From: Dysgonomonas mossii DSM 22836
GTDB taxonomy: Bacteria; Bacteroidota; Bacteroidia; Bacteroidales; Dysgonomonadaceae
DNA: 64,000 nucleotides
Reading direction: 5' to 3'
NCBI RefSeq assembly: GCF_000213575.1
Contig: NZ_GL892004.1
Location: 496,001 to 560,000 of the forward strand
The position numbers and the translations under genes were made by a program. How positions within the stretch are numbered: position 1 is the first letter of the stretch; each line of letters begins with the position of its first letter. The notes below the pieces were generated by a model. It was given only the letters and a program-made list of their open reading frames with translations. It was not told the origin of the DNA and made no database searches. Below are positions 20,939 through 48,717 of the stretch, one piece after another.

Positions 20939-20995
20939 GTGACAAAAGGTGACACTTTAAAACATGCTTAAAAGTGTCACTTTTGTCACTTTTTG
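20939..20995. repeat. Long imperfect hairpin built from GTCAC repeats; probable convergent terminator
   Basis: The arms 20939-20960 and 20968-20989 pair over about 20 bp with two bulges. The right arm contains GTGTCACTTTTGTCAC and runs into a T5 stretch. A third GTCACTTTTT copy follows at 21040-21050. The 20 bases at 20970-20989 recur exactly at 39571-39590. The element lies between the convergent OMP gene and DUF5131 gene. Confidence 0.6.
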
Positions 20996-23244: not shown

Positions 23245-23287
23245 AAAAAAGAAAATCCGGATCATATGATCCGGATTTTCTTTTTTT
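23245..23287. terminator. Bidirectional terminator between ffh and trxB
   Basis: A perfect 42-bp palindrome (23245-23286): six A residues, the GAAAATCCGG arm, the centre ATCAT/ATGAT, the mirrored arm and six T residues plus one. Works on both strands for the converging genes. Confidence 0.92.
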
Positions 23288-39464: not shown

Positions 39465-39570
39465 AGTGTGTATCCTTTGTTCGAATAGCTATAATAAATA
39501 CTTAATATTATCTAATATAAGAGCTTGATGCGCTTCAATAATAGAAAAAGTAACAACTCAAAACAATGGA

Positions 39571-39590
39571 AAAAGTGTCACTTTTGTCAC
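39571..39590. repeat. Second copy of the GTCAC intergenic repeat
   Basis: Twenty bases identical to 20970-20989, but here the mirrored arm is missing. It continues into a third unit, giving GTCACTTTT, GTCACCTTTT and CAC. It lies 23 bases before the start of the M20 gene. A tiny ATG...TAA frame of 11 codons runs through it and is not considered real. Confidence 0.55.
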
Positions 39591-39613
39591 CTTTTCACTA
39601 AAATATAAAATCT

Positions 39614-44549: not shown

Positions 44550-46274
44550 TCAGTAGACTATTTGTTGAGAGTTGTATATTTCCTGATACAGCTTCGATTT
44601 TTCTATTAGTTCGTCAGGTTTACCAATAGCATCTATCTCACCATCTTCCAGTACTATCACTCTGTCGGCTGATTGCATTGTATTGATACGTTGTGTGATA
44701 ATAAAGACAGTTGTTCCTTTTAATAGATTGTTAAGATTATATCTGATTTTCTGTTCGGTCTCCGTATCCACAGCACTTGTACTATCATCCAATATAAGGA
44801 TTTTGGGCTTACGTAATAGTGCACGTGCAATACAAATCCGTTGCTTTTGTCCTCCTGAAACATTAATGCCTCCACGTCCCAAAAGAGTGTTATATCCATC
44901 TGTGAAAGATATGATGAAATCGTGTGCTTGAGCTGCTTTTGCCGCTTCTTCTATTTCCTCTATTGTTGCATCGGGTCGTCCCCAGCGGAGATTATCTATA
45001 ATTGTTCCGGTGAAGAGTTCATTTTTTTGCAGTACCATACCTATTTCGGCATGCAATTCTTTCAGATTATAATCCTTTACATTAACTCCATCTATGAGAA
45101 TCTCTCCTGCTGTAACATCGTATAGTCGTGGGATAAGCTGAAGCATGGAACTCTTTGCCGACCCTGTTGCTCCTACTACAGCGATTGTTTCACCTTGTTT
45201 TATGTGGAAATTAATATCCTTCAATACATCGTTTTCACCGCCATTATAACGGAAAAAGACATTACTGAAAGTAACTTCTCCCTTTGTTATTTTATGCTTG
45301 TTTGATAAGCCTTCTTCGGTATTTGCAAGAGAGGGTTCTGTATTCATTACTTCGAGTATGCGCTCTGATGAGGCCGAAGCTCTCGCTATATTTACAATCA
45401 CCATCGAGAGGAACATTAAAGCCATCAGTATTTGTGTCATGTAATTGACAAAAGAAATAAGCTCTCCCACTTTAAGGTTACCTTCTATCGCTTTTGCTCC
45501 GCCTACCCAAAGGATTACGATAACAGATACATTCATTATCAGTTGCATGACAGGAAATATTGCTATCACAACATTAGACGCATTCACTACCATATCTTGC
45601 AGGTCATGGCTTCTCTTCTCAAATTTCTTAGTTTCAAAATCCTCCCTTACAAATGATTTAACGACACGGATATTGATCAGGTTCTCTCTTACCACGGCAT
45701 TGAGTTGATCAATCTTTTGTTGTACTTTCATAAAGAGTGGAAGCCCTTTATACATGATGAGGAAAATGCTAATACTAAGTATAGGTACAACTCCCAACAT
45801 GATAAAAGCAAGATCGGTATTTATTTTTATAACAAAGAAAAAAGACATAACCAACATTAACGGCGAACGTAACAACAAGCGCATACTCATTAGTGCAACT
45901 TGCTGTATACGGGTGATATCGTTTGTTAGACGTGTGATTAATGAAGCGGAATTAAATCTATCGATTTCTGTAAAAGAAAGCTGCTGTATTTTCGAAAATA
46001 ATTTGCTCCTAAGATCTGTGCCAAATCCGATGGATGCTTGAGAAGATACATATACATTAATGATGCTTACAACAAGTCCCAGAATGGATATCCCCACCAT
46101 GTATGCTCCAATTTCAGTAATGACAGATAGGTTACGGTGCACAACCCCATCGTCTACAATCTTTGCCATAAACCAAGGCTGTATTGTTTCACACAGTACG
46201 GTGATCAATACAAGAACCGGGCTTATAATGAGGCTTGTTTTGTACTTCTTTAGTATCTGCCAATATATTTTCAT
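44550..46274 (-). CDS. Heterodimeric ABC exporter subunit with degenerate NBD
   Basis: 574 residues with the same layout. Its own nucleotide site is degenerate: Walker A reads GATGSAKSS, the Walker B Glu is Asp (LDDSTS) and the switch His is Gln (ITQR). Its signature VSGGQ is canonical and would complete the partner's site. It is transcribed first; a TATTTTTG -7 element lies at 46330-46337 on the minus strand. Confidence 0.92.
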   Translation of the reverse strand: MKIYWQILKKYKTSLIISPVLVLITVLCETIQPWFMAKIVDDGVVHRNLSVITEIGAYMVGISILGLVVSIINVYVSSQASIGFGTDLRSKLFSKIQQLSFTEIDRFNSASLITRLTNDITRIQQVALMSMRLLLRSPLMLVMSFFFVIKINTDLAFIMLGVVPILSISIFLIMYKGLPLFMKVQQKIDQLNAVVRENLINIRVVKSFVREDFETKKFEKRSHDLQDMVVNASNVVIAIFPVMQLIMNVSVIVILWVGGAKAIEGNLKVGELISFVNYMTQILMALMFLSMVIVNIARASASSERILEVMNTEPSLANTEEGLSNKHKITKGEVTFSNVFFRYNGGENDVLKDINFHIKQGETIAVVGATGSAKSSMLQLIPRLYDVTAGEILIDGVNVKDYNLKELHAEIGMVLQKNELFTGTIIDNLRWGRPDATIEEIEEAAKAAQAHDFIISFTDGYNTLLGRGGINVSGGQKQRICIARALLRKPKILILDDSTSAVDTETEQKIRYNLNNLLKGTTVFIITQRINTMQSADRVIVLEDGEIDAIGKPDELIEKSKLYQEIYNSQQIVY

Positions 46275-46624
46275 ATATGTATAATCTGTTAAGACCAGAT
46301 ATTGTTCAACAATTATTTTATTTGTATGGCAAAAATAGGAATAACTTCTTAAACTTATTTATATTCGAGGAATCTCTTGCTCTTCATAAAATGACCATTT
46401 GCAAAAATAATAATACACCGGTTCCTATTTAGAATAGTCTTTTAGGTAACATTTGCTATTGAAAGCCTGTTTTTACCAAGTAAAAATGTTATTAAATATC
46501 TCTTTTACATCATGTTTTCGTTTACGGTCCTTCCATAATAAACTTTTTTCAATATATTGGCATTGGTTATGCAAATAAATTTTTTGCAACAATTCAATGA
46601 AATTTAAACAATCTCTTAGCAAAA
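46275..46624. other. 350-base gap between the ABC exporter and the AraC gene
   Basis: AT-rich, no gene seen. It holds the -7 element of the ABC pair (minus strand, 46330-46337), a hairpin TTTTTAC-CAA-GTAAAAA at 46470-46486 and the left copy of the cassette inverted repeat (46592-46619). Sequence between 46500 and 46590 could be remains of a mobile element, but no coding frame survives. Confidence 0.6.
46592..46619 (+). repeat. Left copy of 28-bp inverted repeat bounding AraC/VOC cassette
   Basis: The first 19 bases, ATTCAATGAAATTTAAACA, are exactly mirrored at 47950-47968, and 25 of 28 bases match over the full length. It ends five bases before the AraC ATG. The sequence on its minus strand (TGTTTAAATTTC...) resembles IS-type terminal repeats. 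Confidence 0.75.
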
Positions 46625-47446
46625 ATGCAGTACGAAACATTTGAACCAAGCAATGTCCTTAAGTCATTAGTTAAATGTTACTGGACGTTGGAAGTCCCTG
46701 CCGAAAATAACGCAGACAAACAACGAATTGTGCCCGATGGCTGTTTGGAAATGGCTTTTATTCTCGGTGATGATATTAGACGTTTTACTTCCGAATGTGA
46801 ATTTATCCTTCAACCACGTGCAATGGTGCTTGGTCATACCACTGACCCTTTTTACATTAAACCAACAGGATATGTAAATACTTTTGCTGTTCGTTTCTAT
46901 CCTTATGGTTTTGCAAATTTTGTAAAAACGTCTATCAAAAATCTTGCAAATAAGGAAACCCCGATCACTGAGCTTTTTGAAGAAACAAAAGCAAACGATT
47001 TGGAACAAAACATCATTCACGCAACCGACACGCAACAAAGAATTAAGATTGTCGAGACTTTTTTATTGAACAAAATCAACGAGAAAGCCACAATCGACAA
47101 TATTGTAAAATCAACTATTGATACACTTCTCCTAACAAATGGAAATTCATCGATCAGTAAAATCCTCAAAGAAAATGTATCAAAACGCAGACAATTGGAA
47201 AGAAATTTTATAAAGCAAATTGGAATCAGTCCCAAACAATTGGGGAAAGTAATCCGCTTACAAGCTGCCCTGAAAATGTTACTTAACCATAAAACCGAAA
47301 CTCTCACTCAAATCGCTTACGAAAACGAATATTACGACCAGGCACACTTTATCAAAGATTTTAAAGAATTTACGGGAATCAATCCTAAAGATTTTTTAGA
47401 AGACAGGCAAAATGTGCTGTCATCCCTTTTCTATCGAAAAGATTAG
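46625..47446 (+). CDS. AraC family transcriptional regulator
   Basis: 273 residues. N-terminal ligand-type domain (about 1-115, with IVPDGCLEMAFIL and VNTFAVRFYPYG). The C-terminal HTH includes LGKVIRLQAALKMLL and the family signature LTQIAYENEYYDQAHFIKDFKEFTGINPKDF near 225-255. Likely controls the VOC gene 97 bases downstream. Both lie inside the inverted-repeat cassette. Confidence 0.92.
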   Translation: MQYETFEPSNVLKSLVKCYWTLEVPAENNADKQRIVPDGCLEMAFILGDDIRRFTSECEFILQPRAMVLGHTTDPFYIKPTGYVNTFAVRFYPYGFANFVKTSIKNLANKETPITELFEETKANDLEQNIIHATDTQQRIKIVETFLLNKINEKATIDNIVKSTIDTLLLTNGNSSISKILKENVSKRRQLERNFIKQIGISPKQLGKVIRLQAALKMLLNHKTETLTQIAYENEYYDQAHFIKDFKEFTGINPKDFLEDRQNVLSSLFYRKD

Positions 47447-47542
47447 TAATGTCGCATTTATACAATTTTGAAGATAAACTGTATTTTATCTTCGCAATTT
47501 CTAATCAATGTAATTAACTAAAATAATAAAAGATAAAAAATT

Positions 47543-47910
47543 ATGCGTAATTTAATTTCAATAGTAGAGATTCCAACAACAGACTTCTCAAGAGCAGTTC
47601 ATTTTTATCAAACGATCTTAGACATTACGATCGAAGAAGTCGATATGGACGGAACACAAATGGGAGTTTTGCCGAGTGACGGAGAAACCGTAAATGTAGT
47701 TTTAGTTAAAGGCAGCGATTATAAACCCACAAGTGATGGAGCGGTTCTTTATCTGAATGCAGGAAATGACTTGCAACCAATGCTCGAAAAGATAAGTAAA
47801 AATGGAGGACAAATCATTGTACAGAAAACCCCAATCACTCCTGAAATGGGATTTTTGCATTATTTATGGATACAGAAGGAAATAAGTTAGGACTTCATTC
47901 AGCACAATAA
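47543..47910 (+). pseudogene. VOC (glyoxalase/dioxygenase-like) gene broken by a frameshift
   Basis: The frame from 47543 runs to a TAG at 47888-47890 (115 residues) and ends in a non-family tail. One base added in the T5 run at 47852-47856 restores FFALFMDTEGNKLGLHSAQ, the normal VOC ending, with TAA at 47908-47910. The rest is VOC-like (IVEIPTTDFSRAVHFYQTIL). It is a disrupted gene, a phase-variable tract or a sequencing error. Confidence 0.8.
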
Positions 47911-47940
47911 GCTGATGAAATGGAAAATATAAATTAGGGA

Positions 47941-47968
47941 CTTAGAGCCTGTTTAAATTTCATTGAAT
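47941..47968 (-). repeat. Right copy of 28-bp inverted repeat bounding AraC/VOC cassette
   Basis: Reverse complement of 46592-46619 with three mismatches; the outer 19 bases (47950-47968) are identical. It starts 31 bases after the restored VOC stop. Confidence 0.75.
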
Positions 47969-48055
47969 AGTTTTTTATATTCTGGTTTAGAATTTTATTT
48001 GTGAAATAGTTGTGTTAAAGAAATATATTTATAATAGTGTTTTTTAATATCCTCT

Positions 48056-48138: not shown

Positions 48139-48717
48139 ATGAAAACGAATAAACGCATCGGGGAGAGGATTCGCGAAATCCGCGAATCGAAATCAATATC
48201 TCTTGCTGATATGATAGAGCGTTCGGGCTTAGCCGAGAAGCAAGTTGTTGCAATAGAAGAGACTGGAGGAATTCCTTCTTTAGCTCCGCTGATAAAGATA
48301 GCCCGTGTATTAGGTGTAAGATTGGGAACTTTTCTTGATGATGTGGACGAGTCGGGTCCTGTAATATCTCGCAAAGAACAATACAACAAGAGTATAAGCT
48401 TTTCTACAAAAGATACTTCCTCTGTTAAACACATGGATTACTACTCTCTGTCTTCTACAAAATCGGGGAGGCACATGGAGCCATTTGTTATACAGATTGA
48501 GCCCATAAAAAAAGGTGTTGATTTTATTCTTTCCACGCATGAGGGTGAAGAGTTTATTTATTGCCTAGAAGGTGTTGTTGAAATAAACTATGGCACTGAT
48601 GTATATTGGCTTGAAGAAGGGGATAGCATTTATTACGATTCTATCGTATCCCATCATGTGCATGCGGGAGGTGAAAGTGGAGCTAAGATTTTAGCGGTGA
48701 TTTATACTCCTTTATGA
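48139..48717 (+). CDS. XRE-cupin transcriptional regulator
   Basis: 192 residues from the ATG at 48139; an earlier in-frame start at 48094 lies in the promoter. XRE helix-turn-helix at 5-60 ([25 protein letters not shown]) and cupin at about 115-190 ([36 protein letters not shown]). The cupin probably senses a small ligand. It is 23 bases before the acyl-CoA synthetase, which it probably regulates. Confidence 0.9.

Follow-up and report, generated by a model that had tools for sequence, protein, structure and literature searches.

Composite transposons such as Tn10 and Tn5 carry inverted copies of an insertion sequence (IS), IS10 and IS50, respectively. In a further kind of mobile unit, the mobile insertion cassette (MIC), the IS-like tips mark the outer limits. 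PMC3129680 uses the name MIC, and such cassettes resemble the locus described here in that passenger genes, but no transposase, lie between IS-type ends. We analyzed a window of 64,000 nucleotides from Dysgonomonas mossii DSM 22836 (contig NZ_GL892004.1, positions 496,001 to 560,000), in which genes for an AraC-type regulator and a VOC protein are enclosed by an inverted repeat. Judging from comparison with related genomes, the locus is very likely a decayed IS5-type composite transposon with the AraC-VOC pair as its cargo.

The original prediction, made from this DNA alone, had described a 19-base sequence that is exactly mirrored between 46592-46610 and 47950-47968, with 25 of 28 bases matching over its arms. 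Both values were reproduced. When the arms are extended to 46588-46619 and 47941-47972, 28 of 32 bases pair. The longest exact inverted pair no more than 2 kb apart was 17 nt in 200 dinucleotide-preserving shuffles of the window, so a 19-base pair at a spacing of 1.3 kb is above chance, and a chance origin was rejected. The prediction had named as evidence against mobility an arm occurring nowhere else and a gene pair keeping the same place in all close relatives. An 18-base core of the arm indeed has no third occurrence in the genome of the window, G000 (3.95 Mb in 28 contigs, up to two mismatches), yet it is found in two other genomes of the genus, G010 and G020 (3 of 25 genomes including that of the window, at most one mismatch), and the pair lies at a different place in the relatives that carry it. 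The longest exact inverted pair of the window is a different, unrelated one, a 42-base perfect palindrome at 23245-23286 that runs into a T-run and is probably a bidirectional terminator. The window also holds a 51-nt direct repeat of 78% identity (20944-20994 and 39545-39595, 18.6 kb apart), both copies of which contain GTGTCACTTTTGTCAC.

Between the arms, the AraC-type regulator (46625-47446, forward strand, 273 aa) carries DUF6597 and HTH_18 domains. The left arm had been thought to begin five bases before its ATG; the start shared by the relatives (MQY...) is at 46625, 33 bases past 46592 and in another frame than the ATG at 46597. The VOC protein belongs to the glyoxalase/bleomycin-resistance superfamily (47543-47910, forward strand). 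Its frame breaks within a T-run (47852-47856). The end of this gene, from which the distance to the right arm had been counted as 31 bases, has to be given twice, since the open frame stops at 47890 and the counterpart of the stop in intact relatives is at 47908-47910. Intact copies of 122 aa are present in three other genomes. As had been proposed, the frames between the arms include no transposase.

The origin of the arms became apparent from an IS with the same ends, for which the original prediction had advised a search. A full-length relative of the arm-bearing IS, 875 bp long, is present in G010, a genome of the same genus (within contig C235, 19161-20056), where one of the two copies of the arm core terminates it. 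Its transposase is encoded in two overlapping frames with DDE_Tnp_1 in both. The first frame scored 130.7 bits (6.8e-38) against the IS5-family model NF033580, above the cut-off of 110, and the second 54.8 bits (1e-14), below it; the element thus has an IS5-type DDE transposase. It starts with GAGCCTGTTTAAATTTCATTGA, its other end is a diverged inverted copy, GAGCCTGTTTAAATTT is found at both ends, and TAA flanks it on both sides, so that it shows terminal inverted repeats together with a short target duplication. The left arm of the window matches the 5' end of this IS at 25 of 28 bases and the 3' end at 20 of 28; the right arm matches at 26 and 23 of 28, respectively. Since both arms match the 5' end better, both represent 5' ends; their tips, at 46615 and 47945, point towards AraC-VOC, and the IS bodies extend outward. 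On these alignments two IS5-family copies in opposite orientation flank the pair, and the arms are to be read as their inside ends. Elsewhere in G010 (contig C118, locus L008, 3079-4551), near a contig end, a solitary IS tip of this type is followed by two further cargo-like genes, methyltransferase-like and PhnB-like VOC as named by reading. This is possibly a second unit of the same composite kind.

Both IS copies of the window are stumps. Within the left arm (46588-46619, reverse strand), 46588-46615 is the 5' inside end of an IS5-family remnant that covers 46379-46615 on the reverse strand and reads away from AraC. On the outer side of the arm, 46380-46570 is 80% identical to the interior of the full-length IS of G010. 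This 5' part is truncated on its outer side, with part of the leader gone, and none of the three frames of its coding strand is free of stops (46384-46614). On the other side, 47945-47972 (forward strand, the right arm minus its target bases) is the 5' inside end of the right IS and reads away from VOC; just about 28 bases of this copy are left before host sequence, compared with about 237 of the left one. TTA adjoins both tips, at 46616-46618 on the left, in a junction identical in G020 and in a genome of another genus (G032), and at 47942-47944 on the right, where G020 has TAA. We read these as the inner target bases of both IS, given the TAA on either side of the relative in G010. The original prediction had seen no target-site duplication; a matching outer duplication indeed cannot be shown.

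The comparison with G020, the nearest relative searched, showed that the unit occupies different places. At the locus of the window, G020 has the same host flanks, an ABC transporter gene (44550-46274, reverse strand, in the window) and an XRE-cupin regulator (48139-48717, forward strand, 99% identical protein), and the two genomes are 92% identical in DNA over two core ABC genes. The unit is absent here. The match to the window stops at 46378, which sets the outer border of the left remnant, and restarts at 47967; between these points G020 has 48 own bases. This stretch (locus L011, ~1281-1328, contig C3) holds TTGAATAAAATTTA, which is also found in the 3' end of the IS, so that the cassette-free site may once have held an insertion, now lost, and could be a scar instead of a virgin site. 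G020 carries the cassette elsewhere, between nucleotidyltransferase-like and channel-like genes (named from their reading frames). At the corresponding site of G000 the unit is absent, with both sides matching and 36 own bases between them. The empty sites that had been suggested as a check therefore exist in both directions.

In G020 more of the two IS is preserved, and the inner IS junctions around the cassette are the same two as in the window. Its right IS is 237 bp long and internally deleted, with both ends kept and the body on the outer side. The outer tip of this copy is the host junction: it abuts TAAGCAAATC, and homology to the unoccupied site of G000 (CTAAACAAACC) restarts exactly there. 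TAA is present on both sides of this IS, and the TAA at the host junction is also found in the unoccupied site. Of the left IS, 418 bp are kept before host DNA begins; its outer left end is missing and stops interrupt all three frames of the IS strand.

An AraC protein with more than 90% identity is encoded in 4 of 101 genomes of the family, at four different loci. Besides G000 and G020 these are G032 and G034, which belong to another genus. The unit of G032 has a DNA-alkylation-repair-like gene on one side and a second VOC gene on the other. In G034 and in a further genome, G029, these two genes adjoin without an insertion, with just 19 and 20 bases between them, respectively. A 127-bp IS derivative occupies the same left junction as in the other copies. 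Its outer end, which is accompanied by TTA, is closer to the 3' end of the IS (24 of 32 bases) than to the 5' end (19 of 32). No IS was found at the right junction of the G032 cassette, and no tip of the arm type within two mismatches in the 15 kb read around the G034 cassette. The pair in G034 is flanked by a 95-bp direct repeat of 91.6% identity (locus L041, 1287-1380 and 2799-2893). Among five genomes searched, this repeat occurs at two places in G034 and at one in G010, in contig C118 beside an IS tip, and is absent from G000, G020 and G032. G034 additionally has a second AraC-VOC pair, 76-78% identical (AraC 76%). About 2 kb from this second pair (locus L129, 2009-7027) are two IS21-like genes, which by reading resemble IstA and IstB, and a recombinase-like frame lies farther away. 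With no IS tip in G034 and a single IS in G032, one or more of the copies may have been moved in another way or may no longer have the IS, and these two genomes are the worst fit to a single mechanism.

A composite transposon best accounts for these observations taken together: two inverted copies of the same IS around the cargo in the window and in G020, differing loci, sites in G000 and in G020 that are each empty where the other genome has the unit, and a host junction in G020 that is formed by the outer tip of an IS. This bears out the suggestion that the module was caught between two IS ends: the arms are IS5-family 5' ends and the empty sites document movement. Sites without the unit are also seen for the copy of G032, whose insertion is absent in G034 and G029. 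Two outer IS ends with a matching target duplication survive in no copy. Single outer ends survive on the right in G020, with TAA, and on the left in G032, with TTA; the window has none. Because the outer ends are lost, we apply the name to the ancestor and speak of a decayed composite. In this ancestor, two copies of one IS5-family element would have flanked AraC-VOC in opposite orientations with their 5' ends facing the cargo, both IS and the gene pair together forming the transposon. We infer that the unit moved by transposition at its two outer ends, where transposase from either IS would have cut before IS, AraC-VOC and IS were carried together to a TNA target. The unit would additionally have been transferred between genera. 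The IS bodies would then have decayed, losing their outer parts and gaining stops, and left the gene pair fixed between two stumps.

The alternative that deserves most attention, although we consider it unlikely, is that AraC-VOC spread by conjugation, or by transformation and recombination, and that the IS merely landed beside the pair in a common source. This would account for the G034 pair without an IS tip, for the IS on one side only in G032 and for the fact that matching outer target duplications are not demonstrable. It would also agree with the situation in distant Bacteroidota, which keep the pair: 38 of 39 loci lack a tip (up to two mismatches, at most 4 kb of flank per locus), and the exception (L086, Dysgonomonas sp. 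HGC4) is the copy of G032. Two observations speak against this alternative: in all four copies, homology begins at the left IS junction (TTAG) and stops at the right one or within about 25 bases of it, and the host junction in G020 is formed by an outer IS tip.

The original prediction had also considered a transposase-less mobile unit. In explicit form this would be a MIC-like unit with the 28-bp arms as its own terminal repeats, which an IS sharing those ends would mobilise in trans. Such an IS does exist in G010 and a transposase gene is absent between the arms, yet the orientation of the tips contradicts this and leaves it very improbable: at 46615 and 47945 they face the cargo instead of the outer border, and inward-pointing arms cannot delimit a moving unit. 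Moreover, IS sequence rather than target lies outside the left arm, and on both sides in G020, and a full-length IS was not found by DNA search in the genome of the window. Given that the left arm lies directly upstream of araC, the arms might instead be regulatory operators such as AraC binding sites, with no relation to an IS. This we regard as hardly credible, since two observations contradict it: in G010 the arm sequence forms the end of an IS that bears a transposase, with no match to AraC-VOC in 19 kb around, and the pair in G034 is without arms.

If a composite transposon brought the pair to its present place, little of its machinery is left. Beyond the DNA search, a search of G000 with the profile NF033580 returned one diverged IS5-type frame (contig C3, 191574-192320, locus L146) that contains an in-frame TGA and scored 85.6 bits against a cut-off of 110; no arm-like tips were present at this frame within four mismatches. 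A transposase able to act on the ends was not identified among the IS copies themselves, the left remnants of the window and of G020 being stop-ridden and the right one of the window too short. With no usable transposase and both outer parts lost, the unit in the window appears to be immobile now, as far as tested. As the tips face the cargo, the arms alone cannot move the pair.

The four cassettes are 92.5-94.9% identical to one another at the nucleotide level. The two core ABC genes share 70-74% identity between the two genera, and their dS is very high or not computable. We infer from this that the cassette passed between the genera. For G000 and G020, a core dS of 0.34-0.36 and an AraC dS of 0.28 are similar, and their copies may date from roughly the time of the species split. 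The bootstrap values of a maximum likelihood tree of the cassette copies (56 and 41) were too low to settle whether these two are sisters. No plasmid carrier of the cassette was found in a plasmid collection: cassette DNA gave a single weak match (72% over 13% of the query), four records had short partial matches to the IS, and no AraC relative of at least 60% identity was present (90 records; the best among the matches listed had 57.6%).

Both genes are under constraint, with dN/dS values of 0.11-0.19 for AraC (six pairs of the four cassettes) and 0.08-0.14 for VOC (three pairs, the broken copy of the window being left out). The AraC values suggest that the pair probably does something useful. 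From the protein fold one might guess at a response to a small toxic molecule. In a genome scan, a VOC relative lies downstream on the same strand in 22 of 39 loci with an AraC relative, a count that includes L086, the copy of G032 itself; the other 17 do not have one there. As a regulator-enzyme pair, the two genes are conserved over part of the AraC relatives. When 38 proteins (34 of the 39 loci and four others) were placed in a tree, the four copies join the second copy of G034 with a local support of 0.99, and the next joining group includes Flavobacteriaceae (0.85).

These results offer a solution to a puzzling inverted repeat around a gene pair, which came from the orientation of the tips and the unit-free sites, and they point to a small regulator-enzyme pair having moved between genera with such dissimilar core genes. 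A more tentative idea, which we hold to be rather doubtful, is that AraC-VOC is a recurrently captured cassette of this bacterial family and that the four genomes freeze different stages in the assembly and decay of one composite transposon, with no IS of this type in G034, one in G032 and two in G020 and the window. If so, two or more kinds of element would have carried the pair, owing to an advantage that the pair itself confers.

The mechanism of movement as proposed is most likely a textbook one and does not call for a new kind of mobile unit. In its parts the unit resembles the IS5-family insertion sequences, IS1031/IS427-like by an assignment at the family level, which share the 875 bp, the two-frame DDE transposase, the inverted ends and the TAA duplication of three bases, as seen in the relative in G010. 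Compared with complete members of the family, the window retains 5' parts only, of two copies. In its architecture it resembles Tn10/IS10 and Tn5/IS50, where likewise two opposite copies of one IS surround non-IS cargo; a search of the literature for Dysgonomonas together with composite transposons returned nothing. Like compound transposons generally, the unit sits at different places and relatives have sites free of it. Unlike Tn10 and Tn5, it appears to be built from IS5-family copies that are too decayed to work, its outer left end is lost in the window and in G020, and its 1.3-kb cargo is a regulator-VOC pair.
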